Source of the DNA: Synechococcales cyanobacterium PMM_0073
GTDB taxonomy: Bacteria > Cyanobacteriota > Cyanobacteriia > Elainellales > Elainellaceae
Direction: 5' to 3'
Assembly: GCA_949127695.1 (NCBI GenBank)
Contig: CASBQH010000174.1
Coordinates: 1 to 19,589 of the forward strand
Length of the DNA stretch: 19,589 nt
Made by a program: the position numbers and the translations under genes. Below are positions 1,742 through 19,589 of this stretch, piece by piece. Each line of letters starts with the position of its first letter. Position 1 is the stretch's first letter. Below the pieces are notes generated by a model. That model searched no databases and was not told where the DNA came from. It saw only the letters and a list, made by a program, of their open reading frames with translations.

Positions 1742-1975
1742 ATGTCAGTTAAAGCCGTGTTCAATTTACTTCAGTCGATTGGCAGCAGTGAAGCGCTTCA
1801 GGCCGATATGGTCAAGCTAGGAGCCGCTCACAGCTTTGAGTTTACCCCCGAAGACCTCAAGACTGGAATTGCCCAACTGGCGGCTGGAGAGCTAGCGCCA
1901 GAACAGCTAGCAGGTCTAGCAGGTGGCATCGACAATGGGTCAACCTGGGAGATTTACGACAATACTCAAGCCTAG
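1742..1975 (+). CDS. Nif11-like double-glycine precursor peptide
   Basis: This 77-aa peptide resembles the Nif11 leader class of ribosomal peptide precursors. Residues 1-48 look like the Nif11 fold (MSVKAVFNLL start, FEFTPEDL at 33-40). Residues about 50-62 are the export/cleavage segment ELAPEQLAGLAGG, with the double glycine at 61-62. Cleavage there would release a 15-residue core, IDNGSTWEIYDNTQA, which has no cysteine and so cannot carry lanthionine rings. A strong ribosome binding site (AGGAGA) lies 5-10 bases before ATG 1742, and a strong terminator follows, so it appears to be a free-standing transcript. The C39 peptidase-ABC protein encoded downstream is the obvious candidate processing enzyme. 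Family assignment rests on pattern recognition; the processing is inferred. Confidence 0.78.
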   Translation: MSVKAVFNLLQSIGSSEALQADMVKLGAAHSFEFTPEDLKTGIAQLAAGELAPEQLAGLAGGIDNGSTWEIYDNTQA

Positions 1976-2316: not shown

Positions 2317-3348
2317 ATGACAGAAATTATGCTGAGAGAACTCACTCGGAGCGATATCGATTGGATGGCTGCCGTCGGGCAGAGTCGCCGATGGGAAACA
2401 GGCGAAACTGTGCTAGAGCAGGGAGCCACTGACTATGATATGTCCCTGATTTTGGAAGGTTCTCTGTCATTGCTATTAGGCGAAGGAAGTAGCCTATCAG
2501 AAATTGCAGTGCTGTCCTGCGGGGATATTATGGGCAGCTTCTTTTTGTTTAACAGCCACAGGCTGCCTGTAACGGTGCAGGCAAAAGAGCCAACGCTTCT
2601 GCTAGCGATTCCGCAATCTGTAATGCTGAACAAGCTACAGCAAGATGAAGCATTTGGCGCGCGGTTTTTTCGGGCGATAGCGCTGTTGCTCGCTCAGCGT
2701 CAGCAGGAAATTATTCAACGCTCGCCCCGCACGCTGGTAATGCAGTCACTCTTTCAAAAAGGAATGCTCTTAACCTTTAGCTGTTTACATGACAGCGACC
2801 TTTGCTGGTTCAGCAATCGAGGGCAGGTGCAGCGCGTCGAGCCAGGTTGGCGAATTTTAGAAGGTAAGCCATTAGATGCGATCTATATTTTGCTGAAGGG
2901 CAATCTGGCTCTGTTTGTTTGCAATCAGCAGCGTCAGGCGCTGTCACTAGCATTTGGGGCGGTCGAATCTACCGCCGCAGAATATGTCGCTGAAGTACAG
3001 CCCGGTGAAATCTTGGGCATTGGGCAGCTGCTGGGTCTGGGGGCAAATCCCTATACAATAGAGGCTCCAGGCGAGGCGCTGCTGCTGACCGTGCCGCTTT
3101 CGCTCTTGAATGCTCAGCTTCAGGCAGATCCCTGGTTTGCCTCCCGGCTTTATCGAGCCTTGGCCAGCCTGACTGCCGAACGCACCCAGCAGATTTTGCT
3201 GTATCTGCTGGCTGAGCGGCTCTCTCTGTCAGCGCTCAACCAGCTGCGCGATCAGGAGGAAGTCTTAAGTGGAGAAGTGTTACAGCAAATGACAGTGGCA
3301 CGCGCTAAGTTTAACTGGCTGTTAAAACAGCTGGATGTCAAAGTTTAG
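2317..3348 (+). CDS. Protein with two cyclic-nucleotide-binding-like domains, secretion locus
   Basis: This is a 343-aa protein with no signal peptide. Residues about 20-105 resemble a cyclic-nucleotide-binding (CNB) beta roll (WETGETVLEQGATDYDMSLI, then an IMGSFFLFN turn and an LAIPQS exit). Residues about 165-285 repeat the same plan (VEPGWRILEGKPLDAIYILL, then EILGIGQLLG and LLLTVPLSLLN). Each half is followed by a helix of the RFFRAIALLLAQRQQ or RLYRALASLTAERTQQ type. There is no helix-turn-helix at the C-terminus, so it is probably not a DNA-binding Crp. Pocket residues are poorly conserved, so nucleotide binding is doubtful. CNB-like proteins are often encoded beside NHLM-type exporters in cyanobacteria, where their role is unknown to me. 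A structural or regulatory partner of the exporter is the best guess. Confidence 0.75.
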   Translation: MTEIMLRELTRSDIDWMAAVGQSRRWETGETVLEQGATDYDMSLILEGSLSLLLGEGSSLSEIAVLSCGDIMGSFFLFNSHRLPVTVQAKEPTLLLAIPQSVMLNKLQQDEAFGARFFRAIALLLAQRQQEIIQRSPRTLVMQSLFQKGMLLTFSCLHDSDLCWFSNRGQVQRVEPGWRILEGKPLDAIYILLKGNLALFVCNQQRQALSLAFGAVESTAAEYVAEVQPGEILGIGQLLGLGANPYTIEAPGEALLLTVPLSLLNAQLQADPWFASRLYRALASLTAERTQQILLYLLAERLSLSALNQLRDQEEVLSGEVLQQMTVARAKFNWLLKQLDVKV

Positions 3349-4077: not shown

Positions 4078-4125
4078 ACTTCACTTAGCCGATACTTCAC
4101 TTAGCCGATACTTCACTTAGCCGAC
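4078..4125. repeat. Three tandem copies of a 16-bp repeat upstream of the peptidase-ABC gene
   Basis: ACTTCACTTAGCCGAT occurs three times in a row (4078-4093, 4094-4109, 4110-4125), with the last base of the third copy changed from T to C. It ends 35 bases before ATG 4161 in the 106-base gap after the HlyD-like gene. No gene or terminator is visible in this gap. Confidence 0.88.
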
Positions 4126-4160: not shown

Positions 4161-6425
4161 ATGAATATCCTAACCGAACGCTGGGCAGAGCTTGGCAAGC
4201 CTTCACAGCAGCAGTCACCCACCCAGGCAAAAGCCAAGGCTCTACGAGTCAAAACGCCAGTGCTGCTGCAAATTGAGGCGGTTGAATGCGGCGCGGCAGC
4301 TCTGGGCATCATCCTGGGCTACTATGGCCGAATTGTGCCGCTGGCTGAGCTGCGGCAAGCCTGCGGCGTCTCGCGCGAGGGCAGTTCGGCAGCCAACATC
4401 CTTAAGGCCGCCCAAAACTACGGGCTGATTGCCAAAGGCTACAAAAAAACGCTAGAGCGTCTGCTAGAGCTGCCGCCGCCCTATATTGTCTTTTGGCGCT
4501 TCGAGCATTTTTTAGTCGTCGAAGGCTTCAACGCAGATCGCAGCCTGGTCTATCTCAACGATCCGGCCAGCGGGCGGCGCTCGATTGCGATGGAAGAATT
4601 CAATCAGAGCTATACCGGCGTGGTACTGACCATGCAGCCCGGTGAAGCATTCCAGCGCGGCGGGCGGAAAAAAAGCGTTGTGGGATCGCTGCGGCTGCGG
4701 CTGCGGCAGTCCTATCCGGCGCTGCTTTACTGCATTGCCGCCGGGTTTCTGCTGGTGATCCCCAATTTAGCGCTGCCGGTATTCAGCCAGCTATTTGTCG
4801 ATCAGGTGCTGGTGCGAGGGCAGCTCAGCTGGTTTCCAGGGCTGCTGCTGGCCACCCTGCTAGCGCTGACGCTGCAAGCTCTGCTGACGGCTTGGCAGCT
4901 TCAGGCATTGCGCAAACTACGGATGAAGCTATCGGTGAGCTTGGCCAGTCAGTTTGTCTGGCACGTGCTGCGGCTGCCTGCCGGGTTTTATGCTCAGCGG
5001 TTTCCGGGTGAAATCAGCAGCCGGGTTAGCATTAATGATCAGGTTGCTGAAGTGCTCTCTGGTGAAGTCACCACCACGATTATTAGCGCAGTGCTGGTCG
5101 GGTTTTATGCGCTGCTGATGCTGCAATATAGCCCGCTGCTGACGGTGATTGTGGTCTGCTTTGCCCTGCTCAACGTCGCGGTGCTGCAATGGGTGGCGCA
5201 GCGCCGGATTGACGTGAACAGCCGCATCTCGCGTGACTTTGGCAAAGTAGACGGCGTGGCGATTGCCGGACTGCAAAGCATCGAAACTCTGAAAGCTTCG
5301 GGGCTAGAGTCTGACTTTTTTGCCCGCTGGGCTGGGTTCTATACTAAGGCGACCAACGCTCGCTCTGAGCTGGCGCTGGTGTCGCAGCGGATTGGCGTGC
5401 TGCCTTCGCTGCTCTCCACGCTGAGCATGGTGGCGCTGCTGGGCGTGGGCGGCGGGCTGATTTTGCAGGGCAAGATGACCATTGGGATGCTGCTGGCGTT
5501 TCAGCTTTTAACCCGCAGCTTCCTGACGCCGATCAACAACCTGGTCAAGTTTGGCAAAACCATGCAGGATCTAGCTGGAAATCTGGTGCGCCTAGACGAT
5601 GTGCTGGATAACGCAGTTGACCCCACGCTGGCCAATATTACCGCTTTAGGACTAGATGCAGGCGCAACGCCGCAGCCGCTCAGCTTCACCGGCCATCGCT
5701 TACAGGGCTACGTTGAGCTAGAGCGCATTTCGTTTGGCTACAGCCAGGGCAGCGCGCCGCTGATTCAGGACTTTAGCCTCTCGATTGCGCCCGGGCAGCG
5801 GGTGGCGCTGATTGGCGGCAGCGGTTCGGGCAAATCGACCATCGCCCGGATTGTATCGGGTCTCTATGAACCCTGGCAGGGCGAAATTCGGTTCGATGGC
5901 GTTGCGCGGGCTCAAATTCCGCGCTCGGTGCTGACCGATTCGATTGCGGTGGTGGATCAAGATATTCTGCTGTTTGCGGATACGGTGCGCCACAACCTGA
6001 CGCTCTGGGATGCAACCATTCCCGATAGCGCGCTGCAAAAAGCCTGCGAGGATGCCGTGATTCACGATGTGGTGCTGTCGATTCCGGGCGGCTACAGCGC
6101 TGAGCTGAGCGAGGGTGCGACCAATCTCAGCGGCGGACAGCGGCAGCGGCTAGAGATTGCCAGAGCTTTGGTGAATCAGCCGTCGATCCTGATTATGGAT
6201 GAGGCCACCAGCGCCCTCGACTCTGAAACCGAGAAGCGGATTGACCAAAATCTGCGGCGACGCGGCTGCACCTGCCTGATTGTGGCGCATCGGCTCAGCA
6301 CCATCCGCGACTGCGACGAGATTATCGTGCTGGAACGCGGTAAGGTGGTGCAGCGCGGAACGCATGAGACACTCTGGGAGAATGACGGGTCGTACCGAAA
6401 TCTGATTAGCAGTGAAGCTGGGTAA
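4161..6425 (+). CDS. C39 peptidase-containing ABC exporter (PCAT, NHLM type)
   Basis: This 754-aa inner-membrane exporter cuts double-glycine leaders and exports the peptide. The C39 peptidase domain spans about 30-155: Q37 (oxyanion), catalytic C43 in VECGAAALG, H116 in FEHFLVV and D134 in LNDPASGRR. A six-helix membrane domain covers about 185-475. The nucleotide-binding domain covers about 515-750, with Walker A GGSGSGKST at 552-560, signature LSGGQRQR at 656-663, Walker [13 protein letters not shown] with D680-E681, and switch histidine H710. All catalytic residues are present and the length is normal. It is the likely processing enzyme for both precursor peptides in the window. The gene ends just before a long hairpin shared with the convergent precursor gene. 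Function is confident from family; which peptide it cuts is inferred. Confidence 0.95.
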   Translation: MNILTERWAELGKPSQQQSPTQAKAKALRVKTPVLLQIEAVECGAAALGIILGYYGRIVPLAELRQACGVSREGSSAANILKAAQNYGLIAKGYKKTLERLLELPPPYIVFWRFEHFLVVEGFNADRSLVYLNDPASGRRSIAMEEFNQSYTGVVLTMQPGEAFQRGGRKKSVVGSLRLRLRQSYPALLYCIAAGFLLVIPNLALPVFSQLFVDQVLVRGQLSWFPGLLLATLLALTLQALLTAWQLQALRKLRMKLSVSLASQFVWHVLRLPAGFYAQRFPGEISSRVSINDQVAEVLSGEVTTTIISAVLVGFYALLMLQYSPLLTVIVVCFALLNVAVLQWVAQRRIDVNSRISRDFGKVDGVAIAGLQSIETLKASGLESDFFARWAGFYTKATNARSELALVSQRIGVLPSLLSTLSMVALLGVGGGLILQGKMTIGMLLAFQLLTRSFLTPINNLVKFGKTMQDLAGNLVRLDDVLDNAVDPTLANITALGLDAGATPQPLSFTGHRLQGYVELERISFGYSQGSAPLIQDFSLSIAPGQRVALIGGSGSGKSTIARIVSGLYEPWQGEIRFDGVARAQIPRSVLTDSIAVVDQDILLFADTVRHNLTLWDATIPDSALQKACEDAVIHDVVLSIPGGYSAELSEGATNLSGGQRQRLEIARALVNQPSILIMDEATSALDSETEKRIDQNLRRRGCTCLIVAHRLSTIRDCDEIIVLERGKVVQRGTHETLWENDGSYRNLISSEAG

Positions 6426-6426
6426 G

Positions 6427-6467
6427 AACAGCTGACGGCGGCATAAAAAATACCGCCGTCAGCTGTT
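6427..6467. terminator. Long perfect hairpin between convergent genes
   Basis: A 15-bp perfect inverted repeat, AACAGCTGACGGCGG (6427-6441) and CCGCCGTCAGCTGTT (6453-6467), encloses an A-rich loop. It starts 2 bases after the stop codon of the peptidase-ABC gene and lies 53 bases beyond the stop of the convergent precursor gene. There is no long T run after either arm, so it may be a bidirectional stop of reduced strength or a 3'-end stabiliser. Confidence 0.65.
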
Positions 6468-6519
6468 TGGAGCTACGGCGGCATATTTAGATCACAAGAT
6501 CAGAGCGCAAACTCGATCC

Positions 6520-6867
6520 TTACTCTTCGCTGGAAGGCTTGTGGTAATATTGACCGCCATCGGCACCGCCCGCCACATTCGAGAGATCGTCGGTGCTCAG
6601 CTCTTCGCTGCGCTTAGAGTATTGGCCACCATCTGCACCGCCCGCAATAGTGGCAGTTTCATCAGCGCTCAGTTCTTCAGCGCTCAATCCCAAGTTTTTC
6701 TTAGAGTATTGGCCGCCGTCTTCACCGCCCGCAATAGTAGCAGTTTCATCAGCGCTCAGTTCTTCGGCGCTCAGTCCCAAGTTTTTCTTGGAATATTGGC
6801 CACCATCTTCGCCACCCGATACTGTGGTCAGTTCGTCCTGGTTCAGCTCTTCTTTTTCCGTAGACAT
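6520..6867 (-). CDS. Multi-unit double-glycine precursor peptide with four DGGQY cores
   Basis: This is a 115-aa precursor with four GG sites, at residues 18-19, 47-48, 76-77 and 100-101. Each is preceded by a leader-like segment (ELNQDELTTVSGG, ELSADETATIAGG twice, ELSTDDLSNVAGG) and followed by a core beginning EDGGQYSKKNLG (twice), ADGGQYSKRS or ADGGQYYHKPSSEE. Residues 20-48 and 49-77 are identical. It has no cysteine. Start ATG at 6867-6865 has an excellent ribosome binding site (AGGAG, 6 bases upstream). It lies opposite to and between the two ABC genes. The leader resembles the C-terminal part of Nif11/GG leaders but lacks their long N-terminal domain. Cleavage by the C39 peptidase at several GG sites is inferred. 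I do not recognise the core as a named family. Strong open frames on the other strand across this region are shadows. Confidence 0.88.
   Translation of the reverse strand: MSTEKEELNQDELTTVSGGEDGGQYSKKNLGLSAEELSADETATIAGGEDGGQYSKKNLGLSAEELSADETATIAGGADGGQYSKRSEELSTDDLSNVAGGADGGQYYHKPSSEE
6637..6810 (-). repeat. Two 87-bp tandem repeats inside the precursor gene
   Basis: Units 6724-6810 and 6637-6723 encode the same 29 residues (20-48 and 49-77). By eye they differ at seven of 87 bases; all seven are A/G transitions and all are synonymous. A third, shorter and more diverged unit (6565-6636) and a terminal core (6523-6564) follow. The period is a multiple of three, so units could be gained or lost without frameshift. 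Confidence 0.9.
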
Positions 6868-7569: not shown

Positions 7570-7576
7570 ATGGAAA
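7557..7576. repeat. Imperfect 10-bp tandem repeat covering the start codon of the second ABC gene
   Basis: CCTATAGAAA (7557-7566) and CCTATGGAAA (7567-7576) are back to back with one mismatch. The mismatch makes the second copy contain the ATG start codon at 7570, where the first copy has ATA. No strong ribosome binding site is visible before this start. Confidence 0.6.
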
Positions 7577-10422
7577 CCGAGTCGCTTCGGGCAAATGCAC
7601 CGCTATTGCTGAACCAACCTGATCAGGTTTATCTAATTCAGTCTGGTTCAGTGGCAGTTTTTGCGGTTTCGCTGGCGGCAGGCCGTCCAGTTGGCGAACG
7701 TCATTACCTATTCAGCTGTGCTGCTGGACAGGCGCTCTTTGGCAGCGATGCCCCTGATGCAGGGCTGCTGGCAGTGCCGATTGAGCCTGCTGAGCTTGCC
7801 ATGCAGCCCTTGAGCGCGTTGCCCGCCGCTGAACGCGCTGCTCTGGCAGAGGCTTGGCTGCTGCATCTAAGCCAGATTGACCGCTTGCCCCAGCCCGAAC
7901 CAACGCGCAGCCCTGACATTAGTGAATTTATGTCATTGATGCATGGGCAAGTTTTACAGCCACCCCGCAATCAGATGTTCTGGGTGCAAATCCGGCAGGG
8001 TGAAGCGCGCTGGCTGGGGCTGGAGGCGCTACGACTCACCGCTGAAACTGGGATCTTGCCGATCGCCGGCAGCTGGCTAGTCACCGCTAGCCCAGTCGAG
8101 CTTGAGACTCAGCCCACCGCCGCGCTGGATGCTGCCCAGATGCAGCAGGGGATTCGGCTGCTGCATCGCTGGCTGCTAGAAGCCCTGAGCGTGAGTGCAG
8201 CTGAGGCCGATCAGCTGGCTCAACAGCAGTTCGAGCAGCGGCAGCGGCTCAATCGACAGGCGATGCAGCAGACGTTGCAAAACCTGGCCTCGGTACTGAA
8301 GCCGATCTCGGTGCAGCCGCCCGCGACCCGCGACGAGCTAGACGCGCTGTTGAGCGTGGCTGGAGCTGTGGGTCAGAGGCTGGGCGTGACAATTCGACCG
8401 CCTGCTGATTCCGATCGCGGCGTGGTCATGCGCGATCCGCTAGAGGCAATTGGGCGAGCCTCTAGGCTGCGGCTGCGGCGGGTGCTGCTGCGCCAGGGCT
8501 GGTGGCAGCAAGACTGCGGGGCGCTGATTGCCTATCGCCGCGACAACCATGCTCCGGTGGCGCTGCTGCCGGTTGCTGGCGACCACTATCAGCTGTACGA
8601 CCCGCACCCAGAGCTAAACGCTTCGCCGCGACGGCAAATGGTCACAGCCGCCGTAGCCGCGACGCTAGAGCCACGCGCCTTTATGTTCTATCGGGCGCTG
8701 CCGCACCAGGCGCTGAACGTCTGGGATCTGATGCAGTTTGCGCTGCACGGACGGCGCAGAGATCTGCTGGTGTTTGGGCTGATGGGAATCGGAGTTACGC
8801 TGGTCAGCCTGCTGTTTCCGCTGGCGACTGGGCTGATTATTGATGCAGCGCTGCCTGTGGGCGATCAGACGCTCCTGTGGCAGGTGAGTCTGGGGCTGCT
8901 GTTTGCGGCGTTAGGCTCGGCTGGACTGGAGTTGATTCAAGGGATGGCAGCGATTCGGCTGAATACAATTTCGGAAGCCGAACTGCAAGCCGCAGTCTGG
9001 GATCGACTGCTTCAGCTGAAGCCGACTTTTTTCCGCGACTATGCGATTGGCGACTTAGAATCGCGGGTGTCGGGCATTAGCAAGATCTACCGCAAGCTGA
9101 CTGGCTCGACCATTCAAACCCTGCTCGCCAGCCTGTTTGCCCTGATCAGCTTTGGCCTGATGCTCAGCTATAGCCCGCAGCTAGCTTTGGTGGCGCTGCC
9201 TGTGGCGCTGACGACAGTGCTGTTTACGGTAGTTTCTGGAGTGCTGCTGCTGCGTAAAACCCGGCCTTTGCTAGAGATTGAGGGCGAAATTTTTGGGCTC
9301 CTGGTACAGCTATTAGGGGCAGTGCCAAAGCTGCGGCTGGCCGGCGCAGAAGAACGTGCTTTTGCCACCTGGGGCAAGAAATATACAGCGCGGTTAAAGC
9401 TGGATTTGAGCACGCAGTATATTGAAAACAGCGTCACGATTTTTAACACCGTCATGCCGACAGTGACCGCGCTGCTGCTGTTTTGGCTGCTGGTGCAGCT
9501 GATGCAGAGCGGCAACGGCATTTCGACCGGCACGTTTTTGGCCTTCAGCGCCGCATTTGGCATCTTTATGAGCGGTGTGACCAACCTCAGCAACACGCTG
9601 ATTAACGTCCTAGAAGTCGTGACGCTCTGGCAGCGCTCGCAGCCAATTTTGGCCGCCGAACCAGAAGTTGACCCCGACAAATCTGACCCCGGCAAGCTGA
9701 AAGGCCAGGTGCTGATCGATCGAGTGACCTTTCGTTACCGAACTGACGGGCCCTTGACGCTGGATCAGGTCAGCCTGCGGGCTGATCCAGGCGAGTTTGT
9801 GGCCATTGTTGGGCCCTCTGGCTCCGGCAAATCTACCCTGCTGCGGCTGCTGCTGGGGTTTGACAGTCCGGCGGACGGCACAATTTACTATGACGGCCAA
9901 GATCTAGCCGGAGTGGAAATTACAGCAGTGCGGCGGCAGCTCGGCGTGGTGCTGCAAAATAGCCGGATGAATGCCGGGACGCTGTTTGAGAATATTTCGG
10001 GGAATGCCTTAATTTCGATGACGGATGCCTGGGCAGCGGCTGAAATGGCCGGTCTGTCTGACGATATTCAGGCGCTGCCGATGGGAATGCATACGTTTAT
10101 CAGCGAAGGCGGCACCAATTTTTCGGGCGGACAGCGGCAGCGGCTGATGATTGCGCGGGCGCTAGCGCTGAAGCCGCAGATGCTGCTGTTTGACGAAGCC
10201 ACCAGCGCCCTTGACAACAATACGCAGGCGATTGTCACCGATAGCCTCGATCGCTTAGGCGTGACCCGTATTGTGATTGCCCATCGGCTCAGCACGATTC
10301 GCAGCGCTGACCGCATCTATGTGATCCAGGCGGGGCAGGTAGTTCAGCAAGGCGGATTTGAGGAATTAGTAGCACAGCCCGGACTGTTTAAGCAGATGGC
10401 AGAACGTCAGTTGGCGATGTAG
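7570..10422 (+). CDS. NHLM bacteriocin-system ABC transporter, ATP-binding protein without active peptidase
   Basis: This 950-aa membrane ABC protein is of the second NHLM type, which is normally paired with a peptidase-ABC partner. Residues about 10-75 resemble a degenerate CNB-like roll ([14 protein letters not shown]). Residues about 255-375 resemble a peptidase-like domain without a recognisable Cys-His-Asp triad. Membrane helices run from about 395 to 685. The nucleotide-binding domain spans about 710-945: Walker [10 protein letters not shown] at 748-756, signature FSGGQRQR at 851-858 (F replaces the usual L), Walker [13 protein letters not shown] with D875-E876, and H905. The motor looks intact. 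With the peptidase-ABC protein it may form a heteromeric exporter or a separate step. It is preceded by a 702-base intergenic region, so it is not in a tight operon with the other exporter genes. Confidence 0.93.
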
Positions 10423-11415: not shown

Positions 11416-12693
11416 ATGCAATGTTCTACCCTTACGGAGCTTTCCTGTGAGAAATTGAGCTTGGCCGAGCGCTACCGGCAAGTCCGGCAGCTGAGCGAAT
11501 GGATTGCCCAGCCGCTGGCAATCGAAGACTATGTGGTGCAGAGTATGCCCGATGTCAGCCCGCCCAAGTGGCATTTGGCTCACAGCACCTGGTTCTTTGA
11601 GACGTTTTTGCTACTGCCTCATTTACCCAACTATCAGGTCTTTCACCCCCAGTTTGGCTATCTATTTAACTCCTACTACGAAACGATTGGTGCCCGCCAT
11701 CCCCGCGCTCACCGAGGGTTGCTCTCCCGGCCAACGGTCGAAACAATCTACCAATATCGCGCCTATGTCGATGCGGCAATGCAGGAACTCTTGAGCCGGT
11801 TTGGGGGGCAGCTTGCGCCTAGCTTGGCGTCACTTGTAACGCTGGGGCTGCATCACGAGCAGCAGCATCAAGAGCTGTTGCTGACTGACATCAAGCATAT
11901 TTTGGCGCTCAACCCGCTGCGTCCAGCCTATCGGGCTGATTTGCCTGCTGCTCCTGCGCCTATGGTCTCGCAGGAGCAGTGGCTCGACTATGCGGGCGGG
12001 CTGTACCCCATCGGCTACCAGGGTGATGACTTTGCCTTCGACAACGAGCTGCCGCGCCATCCGGTCTATCTACCCGACTACTATTTGGCGGCACGGCTAG
12101 TCACCAACGGTGAATATCTCGAATTTATCCAGGCCGGGGGATATTGCCAAGCTGCTCACTGGCTGGCCGAAGGCTGGGCGACCGTACAGGCTCAGCAGTG
12201 GCAAGCGCCGCTTTACTGGGAGCAAATCGACGGCGACTGGTGGGAGATGACGCTAGCTGGGCTGCGGCCTCTCAATTTGCAAGCCCCTGTTTGCCACGTC
12301 AGCTTTTACGAAGCCAACGCCTATGCCAGCTGGGCAGGTCAGCGGCTGCCGACTGAAGCCGAATGGGAAGTTGCGGCAGCGGCTACAGCAGTCGAGGGCA
12401 ATCTGCTGGGAGCAGGCTATCTGCACCCTGTCCCGGCGACGGGCAAAGCTCGGCCTGATCAGCTCTACGGAGAGGTTTGGGAGTGGACAGAGAGCGCCTA
12501 TTTGCCCTATCCCGGCTTTCAAATTGCAGCGGGAGCAGTCGGTGAGTACAACGGCAAGTTTATGTGCAACCAGATGGTGCTGCGCGGCGGCTCTTGCGTC
12601 ACGCCGCCTCAGCATGTTCGCCCTAGCTACCGTAATTTTTTCCCGGCAGCCACTCGCTGGCAGTTTAGCGGCATTCGCTTAGCCAAGCGTTAG
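11416..12693 (+). CDS. egtB: Ergothioneine biosynthesis sulfoxide synthase EgtB
   Basis: This 425-aa non-haem iron enzyme uses O2 to join hercynine to a thiol donor and form the sulfoxide intermediate of ergothioneine. An N-terminal DinB-like domain covers about 15-165: WHLAHSTWFFE at 52-62 (H56 a probable iron ligand) and LHHEQQHQE at 145-153 (H147 and H151 the probable HxxxH ligands). A C-terminal formylglycine-enzyme-like domain covers about 190-425, with RHPVYLPDYYLA, RLPTEAEWEVAAAA, YGEVWEWTESAY, LRGGSCVTPPQHVRPSYRNF and SGIRLAKR. Length is normal. Whether it takes cysteine or gamma-glutamylcysteine cannot be read here; no egtA, egtC or egtE is in the window, which leans towards a cysteine-type or incomplete local pathway. 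It lies 36 bases before egtD in the same direction, probably one operon. Confidence 0.95.
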   Translation: MQCSTLTELSCEKLSLAERYRQVRQLSEWIAQPLAIEDYVVQSMPDVSPPKWHLAHSTWFFETFLLLPHLPNYQVFHPQFGYLFNSYYETIGARHPRAHRGLLSRPTVETIYQYRAYVDAAMQELLSRFGGQLAPSLASLVTLGLHHEQQHQELLLTDIKHILALNPLRPAYRADLPAAPAPMVSQEQWLDYAGGLYPIGYQGDDFAFDNELPRHPVYLPDYYLAARLVTNGEYLEFIQAGGYCQAAHWLAEGWATVQAQQWQAPLYWEQIDGDWWEMTLAGLRPLNLQAPVCHVSFYEANAYASWAGQRLPTEAEWEVAAAATAVEGNLLGAGYLHPVPATGKARPDQLYGEVWEWTESAYLPYPGFQIAAGAVGEYNGKFMCNQMVLRGGSCVTPPQHVRPSYRNFFPAATRWQFSGIRLAKR

Positions 12694-12729
12694 CCGTATC
12701 CAGATTCATATTAATTTTTTAGGTTATCC

Positions 12730-13707
12730 ATGACAAATTCTCGCCTCCAGTCTACGGTTCAGCTGTATAATCTACATCCGCCATTGGATAATTTTCGTCG
12801 CGAAGTTTTGCAAGGATTGATGCAGTCTCCTAAGTCGATTTCGCCTAAGTTTCTCTACGACAAGCGAGGCGCAGAGCTATTCGATGCCATCTGCGAACTG
12901 GATGAATATTACCTCACCCGCACCGAAATCTCGATTCTGCAAGCTCATGCCCCAGAAATTGCGGCTTACTTGAATCAAAAAGTGCTGCTTGAGTTTGGCA
13001 GCGGCAGCAGTCAAAAGGTGCGGATACTGCTCGATGCTACGCCCGATTTATCCACCTACGTCGCGCTCGATATTTCCAAGCAGCATCTGCAAGAATCCTG
13101 CGAGAATCTGGTTGCAGCCTATCCAAAGCTTAACGCAATCGCAGTCTGCGCTGACTATACGCAGCCGCTAGAACTCCCCAACATTCCGGCCATTCAGCAA
13201 AAAAATCGCGTCGGTTTTTTCCCCGGTTCAACCATTGGCAACCTAGAGCCAGAAGAGGCCGTGCAGTTTCTCAACTCAGCAGCAGATCTGCTGGGAAGCG
13301 GCGGGGGCTTGCTAATTGGGGTCGATTTGCAGAAAAGTGCAGCAATTTTAGAACCAGCCTATGATGATGCTCAAGGTATCTCTGCTGCATTTGCGCTGAA
13401 CCTATTGACGCGAATCAATCGAGAACTAGACGCTGATTTTGATCTAAATCAGTTTAAATATTCTGCAACCTATAACCAGAGCGCTGGGCGGATTGAAATG
13501 TATATTGTCAGTCTGATAGCTCAGACCTTAAGTTTGGATGGCATTGAGATTCAGTTTCAATCAGGCGAACGGCTACGAACCGAATATTCCTACAAGTACA
13601 GCATTCCGCAGTTTCAAGCGCTTGCGGCCTTGGCCGGATTTCGGGCTCAGCAGGTTTGGACTGATCCAGAGAATCTGTTTAGCCTGCACTATTTGCAATT
13701 GAGCTAG
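12730..13707 (+). CDS. egtD: L-histidine N-alpha-methyltransferase EgtD
   Basis: This 325-aa cytoplasmic SAM-dependent enzyme adds three methyl groups to the alpha-amine of histidine to give hercynine, the first ergothioneine step. Family motifs are present in order: SPKFLYDKRGAELFDAIC at 38-55, LDEYYLTRTE at 57-66, the SAM loop LLEFGSGSSQK at 86-96, VALDIS at 111-116, FFPGSTIGNLEP, LLIGVDLQK, then YNQSAGRIEMY and the terminal TEYSYKYS and WTDPENLFSLHYL. Length is typical. ATG 12730 is preceded by TTAGG, a modest ribosome binding site. It follows egtB closely and probably shares its mRNA. The 251 bases after its stop hold no gene I can support, though a palindrome TTAGATCTAA lies at 13916-13925 ahead of the next gene. 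Confidence 0.95.
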   Translation: MTNSRLQSTVQLYNLHPPLDNFRREVLQGLMQSPKSISPKFLYDKRGAELFDAICELDEYYLTRTEISILQAHAPEIAAYLNQKVLLEFGSGSSQKVRILLDATPDLSTYVALDISKQHLQESCENLVAAYPKLNAIAVCADYTQPLELPNIPAIQQKNRVGFFPGSTIGNLEPEEAVQFLNSAADLLGSGGGLLIGVDLQKSAAILEPAYDDAQGISAAFALNLLTRINRELDADFDLNQFKYSATYNQSAGRIEMYIVSLIAQTLSLDGIEIQFQSGERLRTEYSYKYSIPQFQALAALAGFRAQQVWTDPENLFSLHYLQLS

Positions 13708-16673: not shown

Positions 16674-17915
16674 ATGCCGCTGCGTCTAGTCAAGTTTGCG
16701 CTCTCCCCAGAGCATTCAGAACCGCCGATGTTTCGCCCGCCAGATCGGCTGAAGTCTAGCTACGATGCGGTAATTATTGGCGCGGGTGGACATGGGCTAG
16801 CAGCCGCCTACTATTTGGCGCGAGACCACGGGATACGAGATGTGGCGGTGCTGGAGCGTAGCTATTTGGGCGGCGGCAACACCGGACGCAACACGACGAT
16901 CATTCGCTCTAATTACCTGACTCCGGAGGGCGTCAAGTTTTACGATGAGTCAGTGCGAACCTGGCAGGATTTGTCGCAAGATTTTGATTTAAATCTGTTT
17001 TACGCCAATCGTGGTCACTTCACGCTGGCGCATACCGATGCCTCAGTGCGAACCATGCGCTGGCGAGCGGAAGTGAACAAGCACTATGGCATCGACAGCG
17101 AGCTGGTTAGCCCTGATCAAGTGCAGCAAGCCTGCCCGCAACTTGATCTGAGCTGTGGTGGCAAGGCTCCCATTCAAGCCGCTCTCTATCACGCTCCCGG
17201 CAGCATTGCGCGGCATGATGCGGTGGCTTGGGGTTACGGGCGCGGAGCCGATCAGCGCGGGGTAGAAATCCATCAGCAGACTGAAGTGACAGGGATTACG
17301 GTGAAGTCGGGGCGGGTGACGGCGGTGCAGACTACCAAGGGGCAAATTGAAACGCCGCGTGTCCTCTGTGCGGTGGCTGGATTTACACCGAGGCTTCTCG
17401 CAATGGTAGGGCTGCGTTCACCGCTGGTGATTCATCCGTTGCAGGCAATGGTGAGCGAGCCGATGAAGCCCTGGCTTAACCCGATTGTTGTCTCCGGCAG
17501 TCTGCATGTCTATGTCAGCCAGACGGCCAGAGGCGAACTGGTAATGGGGGCATCGCTCGATCCCTACGAGCTGCATTCGACCCGCTCCACGCTAGAATTT
17601 GTCGAAGGTTTGGCGGCGCGGATGCTAGAGCTGTTCCCGTTTTTGTCACAGGCTAAAGTGGTGCGGCAATGGGGAGGCATGGCCGATATGACGCCAGATT
17701 TTGCGCCGATTATGGGCAAAACGCCGATTCAAGGCTTTTATCTGGATGCGGGCTGGGGAACTTGGGGTTTCAAGGCCACTCCCGTCTGTGGAAAGACAAT
17801 GGCTTACACAGTGGCGAACGATCAAAATCATAAGCTGATTACCGAGTTTTCACTAGAGCGGTTTACTAACTATGCGCTGCTGGGTGAAAAGGGCGCAGCT
17901 TCGGTTGGACATTGA
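16674..17915 (+). CDS. soxB: Heterotetrameric sarcosine oxidase beta subunit SoxB
   Basis: This 413-aa FAD-binding catalytic subunit oxidises sarcosine. The dinucleotide-binding motif VIIGAGGHGLAAAYYLA is at 33-49, followed by the family signature GGGNTGRNTTIIRSNY at 66-81. H181 in IARHDAVAWGYGR matches the position of the histidine that carries covalent FMN in characterised beta subunits. The C-terminus has the expected GGMADMTPDFAPIMGKTPIQ and GWGTWGFKATPVCGK. ATG 16674 gives an N-terminus of the expected length, with GGAG about 15 bases upstream; ATG 16728 would be too short. It starts a soxB-soxD-soxA operon, divergent from the XRE-cupin gene. Such complexes are known mainly from proteobacteria and actinobacteria, so transfer is possible. 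Confidence 0.95.
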   Translation: MPLRLVKFALSPEHSEPPMFRPPDRLKSSYDAVIIGAGGHGLAAAYYLARDHGIRDVAVLERSYLGGGNTGRNTTIIRSNYLTPEGVKFYDESVRTWQDLSQDFDLNLFYANRGHFTLAHTDASVRTMRWRAEVNKHYGIDSELVSPDQVQQACPQLDLSCGGKAPIQAALYHAPGSIARHDAVAWGYGRGADQRGVEIHQQTEVTGITVKSGRVTAVQTTKGQIETPRVLCAVAGFTPRLLAMVGLRSPLVIHPLQAMVSEPMKPWLNPIVVSGSLHVYVSQTARGELVMGASLDPYELHSTRSTLEFVEGLAARMLELFPFLSQAKVVRQWGGMADMTPDFAPIMGKTPIQGFYLDAGWGTWGFKATPVCGKTMAYTVANDQNHKLITEFSLERFTNYALLGEKGAASVGH

Positions 17916-17937
17916 GGTGGATATTTAAAAGTGAACT

Positions 17938-18198
17938 ATGAAGCTAATGACTTGTCCGCTGAACGGAACCCGACCGATCTCTGAGTTTGCCTATGGCGGG
18001 GAGCTGCGGCAGGAGCCTGCTGTCACCGTGAGCGATCAGAGCTGGGCAGAATATTTATTTTATCGAAACGGCGCGCCGGGAATCAAGCAGGAATGGTGGT
18101 GTCATACGCCGAGCAATACCTGGTTTATTGCCGAACGAGATACGGCTAGAGACGCGGTTTTGCGAACTTTTTTGTTTGAATCTGAGGTGCAGGAATGA
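17938..18198 (+). CDS. soxD: Sarcosine oxidase delta subunit SoxD with incomplete zinc site
   Basis: This 86-aa small subunit of the sarcosine oxidase complex is of normal size. The N-terminus MKLMTCPLNGTRPISEFAYGG and the middle WAEYLFYRNGAPGIKQEWW and following W(F) and ERDT motifs match the family. In characterised SoxD, zinc is bound by CxxC near the N-terminus and by a His and a Cys four residues apart near position 59-63. Here C6 is kept but the second Cys is N9, and H56 is kept but its partner is N60; C55 is a possible substitute. Zinc binding is therefore doubtful. The gene lies 22 bases after soxB (GAGGTGG between them) and its stop overlaps the soxA start in ATGA, indicating coupled translation. 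Confidence 0.9.
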   Translation: MKLMTCPLNGTRPISEFAYGGELRQEPAVTVSDQSWAEYLFYRNGAPGIKQEWWCHTPSNTWFIAERDTARDAVLRTFLFESEVQE

Positions 18199-19589
18199 AC
18201 AGTGATCGATTGCCGCCGATATCGCATGAGTGGATTGAGCGAACGCAGCTAGTTTCGTTCAGCTACGAGGGTAGCCAATATACTGGCTACGCTGGAGATA
18301 CGGTTTCTTCAGCGCTTTGGGCGAACGGGCAGCGGCTGCTGGGGCGCAGCTTTAAGTATCACCGTCCGCGCGGCCTGTTGAGTCTGGCGAACCATGATGT
18401 GAATACGCTGATGCAGGCGGGGCAGCGGCTGAACCTGCGGGCTGACGTGACGCCGCTGGAGCCGGGAATCTCGCTGAAAGCCGTGAATACGTTTGGCGGA
18501 TCGGCCACAGATCGCGCCAGTCTGCTGGATGCTTTCTCTGCGTTTATGCCGGTTGGCTTTTACTACAAAGCTTTTCTAAACAAGCAGCTTTTTCCAATCT
18601 GGGAGCGGCTGATTCGCTACATGACCGGACTTGGCGAGCTGGATTTTGATACACCCCATATTCGCACGGCCAAGCGCTACGATTTTTGCGATCTGCTGGT
18701 GATTGGCGGCGGTATATCCGGACTCTCAGCTGCTTTTACTGCGGCAGAGGCTGGTGCAGATGTGCTGCTGGTAGATGAGAATGCCAAGCTGGGGGGAGCA
18801 GGTGGCTATCAGCTGGGCGGTGAGGCGGCGACTGTCTATCATCTGGTGGAAGCCGTGATCCAGCATCCCCGTATTCGCACCTATTGCAGCACGCAGGCCG
18901 CAGGCTACTATGCCGATCATTGGGTGGCGCTGGTGGAGCCAAATCGCCTGACCAAGCTGCGCGCTAAAGCGGTGATTATGGCCAGTGGAGCCTACGAGCA
19001 GCCGGCGGTATTTCGCAATAATGACCGACCGGGCGTGATGCTGGCCTCGGCAGCGCAGCGGTTGATCTATCGCTATGCGGTGCGGCCAATGCGGCGAGCA
19101 GTCCTGCTGACAGCAAATCGGGATGGCTACCGGGCGGCACTAGATTTGGCGGCGCATGGGGTCGAGTTGGCGGCGGTGGTTGATTTGCGAACCGCGCCAG
19201 ATGATCAGCTCACGCAGGCAGTCCGCGATTTGGGAATTCCGATCTACTCAAATCACTGCATCTATTCAGCCCAGACCAACCCGCAGGGTGACGGAATCTG
19301 CGCTGCCATAGTTCGCGCCCTTGACGGCTCAGGTCAGCGCAGCATTGCCTGCGACGGAATTATTATGAGCGTTGGCTGGGCCCCGGCTGCAAATCTGCTG
19401 TATCAGGCAGGGGCAACCCTACGGTTTGATCCGGCGCTTCAGCAGTTTGTGCCGCAGCATCTGCCGAATGGAATTTTTGCCTGTGGGCGAGTCAACGGAG
19501 TTTATGGCGACAAGCAGGCGGATGGACATAGAGCCGGGACGGCAGCGGCAACCTACCTGGGTTTACTGGATGCTGAACTGCTGCCGCTA
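18195..19589 (+). CDS. soxA: Sarcosine oxidase alpha subunit SoxA, cut by the window edge
   Basis: The first 465 codons of soxA are present; the frame is open to the end of the window. Residues about 15-75 are the N-terminal ferredoxin-like domain without cluster cysteines (TGYAGDTVSSALWANG, then LLGRSFKYHRPRGLLSL). Residues about 105-150 carry FMPVGFYYKAFL. The dinucleotide-binding domain starts with VIGGGISGLSAA at 169-180, followed by LLVDENAKLGG. The later SVGWAPAANLLYQAG and FACGRVNGVYG segments are typical. The C-terminal folate-binding GcvT-like domain, which passes the methyl-derived carbon to tetrahydrofolate, lies beyond the edge, as may soxG. The start ATG overlaps the soxD stop by 4 bases (ATGA), and AGGA lies 1 base before it. 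Confidence 0.95.
   Translation, partial: MNSDRLPPISHEWIERTQLVSFSYEGSQYTGYAGDTVSSALWANGQRLLGRSFKYHRPRGLLSLANHDVNTLMQAGQRLNLRADVTPLEPGISLKAVNTFGGSATDRASLLDAFSAFMPVGFYYKAFLNKQLFPIWERLIRYMTGLGELDFDTPHIRTAKRYDFCDLLVIGGGISGLSAAFTAAEAGADVLLVDENAKLGGAGGYQLGGEAATVYHLVEAVIQHPRIRTYCSTQAAGYYADHWVALVEPNRLTKLRAKAVIMASGAYEQPAVFRNNDRPGVMLASAAQRLIYRYAVRPMRRAVLLTANRDGYRAALDLAAHGVELAAVVDLRTAPDDQLTQAVRDLGIPIYSNHCIYSAQTNPQGDGICAAIVRALDGSGQRSIACDGIIMSVGWAPAANLLYQAGATLRFDPALQQFVPQHLPNGIFACGRVNGVYGDKQADGHRAGTAAATYLGLLDAELLPL

Follow-up and report, generated by a model that had tools for sequence, protein, structure and literature searches.

A candidate polyprotein precursor with tandem leader-GG-core units beside a cyanobacterial NHLM C39 exporter

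Introduction

A protein of 115 residues, encoded beside an NHLM C39 peptidase-ABC exporter in a cyanobacterial draft genome, is built of four consecutive leader-GG-core units and is probably a polyprotein, cut and exported by the adjacent exporter as several short peptides. Double-glycine (GG) precursors are usually taken as one leader followed by one core, and a chain with up to four leaders raises the question of how several sites within a single substrate are dealt with by one peptidase-exporter. The natural one- to four-unit variants described below form a test set for such multi-site handling, and the tandem leader-core arrangement provides a format for multi-peptide expression. Read directly from the sequences are the tandem units, the leader determinants, selection on the frame, variation in unit number, exporter linkage and a distinct exporter clade. 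The window, i.e., the whole stretch of DNA that was analysed, is one contig of 19.6 kb from a draft genome of 3.6 Mb (77.75% complete), and has no match among plasmid records.

The precursor and its repeated units

The precursor is specified by a minus-strand open reading frame with an ATG start (6520-6867), and the four leader-GG-core units in a single gene reported by the first-pass annotation are real. As it had also proposed, the cores read (E/A)DGGQY (EDGGQY at residues 20 and 49, ADGGQY at residues 78 and 102), and a leader-like segment ending in GG was located in every unit (Table 1), the bacteriocin leader model TIGR01847 (NCBIfam) matching two stretches of the protein with 41.9 bits against a cut-off of 15.7. 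At the DNA level the repetition appears as an 87-bp array (2.4 copies, 89% matches; Tandem Repeats Finder). Three further models score the window precursor below their cut-offs, namely TIGR03798 (10.3 bits, cut-off 32.3), the CTB family NF038167 (26.2 bits, curated cut-off 32) and Bacteriocin_IIc PF10439 (26.2 bits, gathering cut-off 27.1), and TIGR03793 (NHLP leader) has no listed match to it.

Chance produces two or more leader sites only rarely: three instances were seen in 8000 residue shuffles (40 family proteins, 200 shuffles each), in a control that picked sites by leader score. The DGGQY codon pattern occurs four times in the precursor's own genome at its present completeness, each time within the precursor gene, and the reversed pattern, serving as control, twice. 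AlphaFold returned a mean pLDDT of 43.7 from a 13-row alignment, with short helices in leaders 1 and 4 only; this result gives a folded repeat domain no support, and the absence of a confidently predicted fold suits a linear substrate.

Table 1. Features of the precursor and its exporter cassette (window positions), with the related Sec-like proteins
Feature	Location	Strand	Details
Second GG precursor, single-unit, Nif11-like	1742..1975	+	TIGR03798 24.1 bits, short of its cut-off of 32.3; matched up to residue 62
Cyclic-nucleotide-binding, bacteriocin transport-associated protein	2317..3348	+	TIGR03896 175.9 bits, cut-off 161.05
Short NHLM HlyD-like adaptor, 205 residues	3437..4054	+	TIGR03794 142.1 bits, cut-off 156.2
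C39 peptidase-ABC exporter NHLM_micro_ABC1	4161..6425	+	TIGR03796 1077.5 bits, cut-off 853.3; Peptidase_C39 domain
Intergenic region with 18-pair hairpin	6426..6519	-	Between convergent ABC1 and precursor genes
C-terminal core ADGGQYYHKPSSEE	6523..6564	-	Residues 102-115 (14 residues); stop 6520-6522
Core ADGGQYSKR and leader 4 (SEELSTDDLSNVAGG)	6565..6636	-	Residues 78-101 (24 residues)
Second 29-residue repeat, containing leader 3	6637..6723	-	Residues 49-77; protein-identical to residues 20-48, 7 silent differences
29-residue repeat: core EDGGQYSKKNLG and leader 2 (LSAEELSADETATIAGG)	6724..6810	-	Residues 20-48; Thr at -7
Leader 1 (MSTEKEELNQDELTTVSGG)	6811..6867	-	Residues 1-19; TIGR01847 match at residues 6-19
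Partner exporter NHLM_micro_ABC2, lacking the peptidase	7570..10422	+	TIGR03797 941.1 bits, above cut-off
Sec-like repeat proteins	L168-L176		Genomes G005, G030, G009, G020, G003

The exporter cassette

The adjoining C39 peptidase-ABC gene, said at first reading to have an intact triad, is confirmed as such by its TIGR03796 match and by residues C43, H116 and D134 of the C39 domain, which together with Q37 are invariant in 13 aligned sequences. The solved C39 domain nearest in sequence is LahT147 (6MPZ), and in an alignment read by eye Q37, C43, H116 and D134 fall on its Gln21, catalytic Cys, His101 and Asp117 (Gln21, His101 and Asp117 as named in PMC6363468); LahT150, a form of the same protein, has been described as substrate-tolerant (PMC6363468). 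The hydrophobic-knot residues A55 and I59 of PCAT1 correspond, again by eye, to Ala77 and Leu81 of the window ABC1, and Ala77 is invariant in the same 13 sequences.

The precursor gene is convergent to ABC1 and divergent from ABC2, with the genes for the cyclic-nucleotide protein and the short HlyD-like adaptor upstream of ABC1. The adaptor matches only positions 291-420 of the 421 in its model, TIGR03794, and has homologues of similar length in 13 other loci. The hairpin separating ABC1 from the precursor gene (fold z -6.69, with none of 200 shuffles equally stable) was not picked up by a simple terminator scan, and is perhaps a terminator shared by the two genes. The conventional single-unit, Nif11-like GG precursor (1742-1975) lies upstream of the cluster that holds the tandem precursor. 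Perfect short tandem repeats with 17- and 16-bp units occupy intergenic positions within the cluster (1671-1703, 4078-4124). The ergothioneine genes egtB and egtD (11416-13707) stand beside the exporter cluster; both are also found near the exporter in L028, and a piece of egtB in L025. Further downstream (16674-19589) are genes that by eye resemble sarcosine-oxidase subunits.

Occurrence among relatives and the exporter branch

The search of cyanobacterial genomes with the 115-residue protein that had been proposed at first reading did uncover relatives. A homologue search of 60 genomes, its own included, gave a match in 13 at E 0.1, one of the 13 being that genome itself and three (G040, G049, G057) weak (E 0.009 to 0.07) and probably due to chance, and a family profile search matched 16 of 36 genomes at E 0.01, including the class B precursors described below. 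A profile of class A, to which the window precursor belongs, matched at least 12 of 388 genomes of the class, all of family f1, with the best 12 candidates scored per genome, so that short distant members may escape; one of these 12 genomes (G014) matched only via a class B gene. Three protein searches returned 1, 24 and 17 proteins. The Pfam entries PF27893 and PF28158 are shown for some relatives and were absent from a Pfam scan of two such relatives, and no paper on either was found in the open literature.

The class A cores are EDGGQYSK in the window and, in relatives, HDSGQYSG, EDGG(F/Y)RRQ, EDGGFLHQ, EDGGFNHE and QDGGNRR, together with two-core forms (RDSGQYY/SGDGGQYY). Among 45 class A proteins, some of them near-identical (e.g., P0002 and L014) and therefore not independent, two have one unit, 30 have two, eight have three and five have four, copies of loci (P0001, P0011, P0012, P0014) being left out of the counts. 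The two single-unit proteins are P0019, by sequence P0005 minus one unit, and P0035, a 30-residue leader plus EDGGQYSTKKQ; both could be cut by contig ends.

In the stretches read, ABC1 neighbours eight of 14 class A genes (the window, L019, L020, L022, L023, L024, L026 and L028), and in each of these the precursor gene lies at the same place between ABC1 and ABC2 and is encoded on the opposite strand. Another two adjoin ABC2 alone, L021 with no ABC1 in 20 kb and L025 at a contig end; the presence of ABC2 and absence of ABC1 within the 20 kb read in genome G021 is counted against the best explanation. No exporter gene was seen in the stretch read for the other four, L027 and L052 (18-20 kb) and L029 and L030 (short contigs), and each of their genomes has a linked system elsewhere. 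The variation in unit number beside NHLM exporters that the first-pass annotation had thought worth looking for is thus found, with one to four units in the 45 proteins and exporter genes adjoining 10 of the 14 loci.

Exporters of these loci group together. In an ABC1 tree of 90 rows, built by a quick method with SH-aLRT support only, the eight class A exporters form one side of a branch (support 99), enclosed in a clade of 22 rows (support 100) that comprises these eight, all seven class B exporters in the tree, five rows without a precursor label and two labelled as having none. Of the latter pair, L071 showed no GG ORF within 21 kb, whereas the precursor of L108 consists of one leader and two cores. 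The tree does not include L021, which has no ABC1, nor L059, L060, L104, L131 and one L062 copy, dropped as duplicates; 25 of its 90 rows bear no precursor label, their contigs ending near ABC1. Among the matches listed for the best 80 ABC1 loci nearest the window, many of whose contigs likewise end near ABC1, six loci contained an ORF with two or more leader matches, of which that of L072 proved false on reading. The five true tandem loci all come from the 22-row clade, and at least 121 single-leader ORFs were found at the same 80 loci (a shuffled-DNA control gave no multi-leader and one single-leader ORF). The tandem form is therefore, in this sample, a speciality of one exporter branch, and the idea that tandem precursors are universal to ABC1 loci was rejected.

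Conservation of the internal leaders

Each unit was found by its core pattern directly behind GG or AG, and the residues ahead of that point were then scored, so that the GG counts are partly built in and endings beyond GG and AG are uncounted, whereas the leader positions are not built in. First leaders (n = 44, P0023 lacking the start of its own) have L-12 and L-7 in 44 of 44, V/I/L-4 in 42 and GG in 43. Later leaders are nearly as uniform: L-12 in 60 of 61, L-7 in 58, V/I/L-4 in 58, GG in 59 and AG in two. These three leader positions are the determinants recognised by PCAT1 (PMC6959990) and LahT (PMC6363468). The motif of C39/PCAT substrate leaders, L(-12)xxxE(-8)L(-7)xxxxGG, is found in window leaders 1 and 4, where L-12, an acidic residue at -8, L-7 and GG are all present. 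Of the three exceptions at -7, two are the Thr residues of window leaders 2 and 3, and the third is the Ala in leader 2 of the window's nearest relative, G002. Since L(-7)A strongly lowers the affinity of PCAT1 (PMC6959990), two of the three internal window sites are perhaps cut poorly, and the missing Leu-7 of leaders 2 and 3 is the main evidence against full processing of this precursor. Also counted against the best explanation is L004, which ends in a core copy without a GG leader. AG-ending leaders number three in two proteins (both leaders of L041, one of P0015); at L041/L052 (G010:C81), L052 has no exporter gene in 20 kb.

Between the window (G000) and G002, whose precursor has one internal repeat fewer, 41 synonymous and nine nonsynonymous differences were counted over 86 aligned codons (dN/dS 0.024, with dS near saturation), and within the window one 29-residue repeat departs from the other at seven of 87 bases, seven synonymous and none nonsynonymous. 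This bias toward silent changes implies purifying selection on the internal GGs and on leader and core residues alike. The first-pass annotation had allowed that only the first GG might be conserved in relatives, or that the repeats might belong to an unrelated protein not linked to an exporter. Later leaders and GGs do recur, as the above counts for L-12 and GG attest, and exporter genes do adjoin most class A genes (10 of 14). Both possibilities therefore fail, the first-pass interpretation is supported, and what is repeated is the leader-core unit.

Class B precursors and Sec-like proteins with the same core

Eight genes, termed class B, carry leader-GG-core twice with a different core, L(N/T)(E/D)RF..AR..NL(N/D)K, one of them (L058) scoring 32.6 with NF038167. 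All eight adjoin a cyclic-nucleotide gene and an HlyD gene, followed in seven by ABC1; in L054 the contig ends after HlyD. Other cyanobacteria have a leader-core-core arrangement, present twice over in L160 and L167. Nine further proteins, some of them in the same genomes (Table 1), carry repeats of the class B core and lack a GG leader; among these, L174 has five near-identical core repeats and no family match. Eight of the nine start with MKR and a hydrophobic stretch, read as Sec signal peptides, the start of L171 being uncertain. As far as their surroundings were read (contigs of 5-7 kb for L171, L172 and L176), none of the nine is at an NHLM cassette, and L170 and L174 have distant ABC homologues. 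In all nine, the repeat starts with Leu directly after Ala or Gly; in class B, Leu is the first residue after GG in 14 of 16 units, the two of L057 starting with Ile or Val. Comparison of the first GG core with the Sec-like repeats gave 74 and 68 within genome G020 against at most 53 elsewhere, 68-80 within G005 against at most 63, and 53 within G009 against at most 52, so that the difference is marginal in this third genome.

The core shared between the GG and Sec-like proteins marks the mature N-terminus and provides an independent handle on function; it is read as the active element in class B, which by analogy suggests a similar role for the core in class A. A Sec version of the class A core was not seen, either with the DGGQY pattern in the window's own genome or with EDGG(F/Y)RR in 36 family genomes, where 11 sites matched, nine in known precursors and two in unrelated ORFs. 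One or two proteins of a single family recur beside class B precursors (L053, L055, L058, L177); those scanned (L053, two copies in L055, L177) belong to AAA_35, an AAA-like domain, and a partner or sensor role in class B is possible for them.

Proposed mechanism and alternative explanations

From these comparisons we infer the cleavage of the precursor, the order of its cleavage, its export and its function as follows. On this view every unit would be a minimal precursor complete in itself, in which a 13-residue leader recognised by C39 and closing with GG precedes a linear core that is short, acidic and opens with xDGG(Q/F/Y). In the ABC1 dimer, the C39 domains would recognise the successive leaders and cleave behind GG at several positions, so freeing short peptides with the N-terminus E/A-D-G-G-Q-Y for export by ABC1/ABC2 and HlyD. 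Because the peptidase is cytosolic, separate peptides require the internal GGs to be cut before translocation, and cutting in the cytosol before the chain is translocated is the favoured order. Internal products would at first still end in the leader of the following unit, a tail that may be kept or trimmed; no tail-removing protease was recognised among genes common to at least three of the 16 loci. With tandem copies, each transcript would yield more peptide, and the chain may also be retained better by the paired peptidase domains. A PCAT1 dimer takes up two substrates via their leaders (PMC6959990), so that two leaders of one chain could occupy both domains. The exported peptide would most likely be an extracellular signal or a surface/matrix peptide rather than a modified antibiotic. 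No known peptide-modifying enzyme was recognised in gene clusters common to at least three of 16 loci (family scans covering some clusters), a comparison that distant enzymes may escape. Beyond the cassette, the genes recurring at class A loci are egtB, an oxidoreductase and a DUF2721 gene, in three loci each.

A broader reading is offered more tentatively, that tandem leader-core polyproteins, each giving several short linear signal peptides, have become the speciality of one branch among the cyanobacterial C39/NHLM exporters. It is conceivable, if somewhat short of an even chance, that this amounts to a bacterial prohormone system, with a sister branch in which one core, with the same N-terminus, is delivered by both of two unrelated routes, GG/C39 and Sec. 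The matching of GG and Sec cores within their own genome (three genomes, one marginal) is what a receptor or matrix partner common to the two peptides would lead one to expect.

Not every GG need be used, and a polypeptide cut only at the first (perhaps also the fourth) site and otherwise exported whole, as an acidic multi-copy multivalent ligand or matrix polymer, is an unlikely reading but the main rival, and corresponds to the multi-site polymer that the first-pass annotation had allowed for. C39 peptidases act in the cytosol and in step with translocation (PMC6959990), Leu-7 is missing from window leaders 2 and 3, the EbfG biofilm proteins with their C39-dependent secretion set a precedent (PMC4997328, PMC9981879), and the want of a recognised tail-removing protease among the genes shared by three or more loci fits an uncut chain. 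Such a polymer, however, would have no need for groove-binding residues at later sites, where L-12 (60 of 61) and V/I/L-4 (58 of 61) persist, and the two single-unit relatives, if complete, also speak against it. It is distinctly improbable that the internal leaders are merely extra docking sites, providing avidity for the two peptidase domains without being substrates themselves. A PCAT1 dimer does hold two leader-bound substrates with only one placed for cleavage (PMC6959990), but docking explains neither the GG kept at 59 of 61 later sites (AG at two, other endings uncounted) nor the repetition of cores along with leaders.

The kinship of the exporter to bacteriocin/RiPP exporters brings to mind an ordinary post-translationally modified bacteriocin precursor in which the duplicated segments are inconsequential. 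This is very improbable, given repeats under purifying selection, the lack of a recognised known modifying enzyme among genes common to at least three of 16 loci, and the scarcity of Cys, found in three of 45 class A proteins and there, by eye, only upstream of the likely start Met. Scarcely credible is a coincidental repeat protein unrelated to the exporter: four of 14 class A copies do lie away from exporter genes, yet the same opposite-strand slot between ABC1 and ABC2 in eight of eight ABC1-linked loci and a C39 leader model scoring above cut-off speak otherwise, and linkage and leader conservation already contradict it. The polyprotein reading, with cleavage at several internal sites, thus stays the preferred one.

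Relation to known systems

The leader, exporter and cluster are of known types. The leader motif, ELSxxxLxxVxGG, is that of GG-leader C39/PCAT substrates of the TIGR01847 type. In its make-up the cassette corresponds to group V as defined by Wang et al. 2011 (PMC3140520), with a bimodular cyclic-nucleotide (CAP_ED) protein, HlyD, a short C39-ABC and an ABC without peptidase, TIGR03896, TIGR03796 and TIGR03797 being above cut-off and the HlyD model TIGR03794 below; repeated leaders do not figure in the Results of that work, whereas here leader and core repeat two to four times per chain. Among the papers listed from the openly licensed literature, no title or abstract opening describes tandem leader-GG-core precursors, and passages of PMC13003496 and PMC8939145 deal with engineered multi-leader constructs and graspetides instead. 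Equally undescribed in the papers listed is the repeated leader-core with variable unit number and its own exporter branch.

The nearest precedent is the fused NHLP-Burk pair (TIGR03795) of Delftia and Acidovorax (Haft et al. 2010, PMC2887384), in which two precursors likewise share one polypeptide. The NHLP-Burk leaders average 108 residues, with a two-peptide product presumed for the pair (PMC2887384), in contrast to the 13-residue leaders and up to four near-identical units, in variable number, found here. Microviridins share the trait of several cores per chain in cyanobacteria, but have one leader for several cores and a modifying cyclase (PMC5934393); here the leader itself repeats and such an enzyme was not recognised. 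EbfG1-4 and PteB of Synechococcus elongatus provide a case of cyanobacterial GG proteins secreted in dependence on a C39 transporter and functioning in biofilms, three of the EbfG proteins being amyloid-forming (PMC4997328, PMC9981879); they are encoded by four separate genes in an operon, and the likeness is one of description rather than of compared sequence. The polyprotein logic is shared with Kex2-processed fungal repeat precursors, which hold many peptide copies per precursor (PMC7329392), Kex2 being a eukaryotic secretory protease and the peptidase here a bacterial, exporter-linked C39. With this substitution, the precursor looks like a bacterial counterpart of the animal and fungal repeat precursors that yield several peptide messengers.
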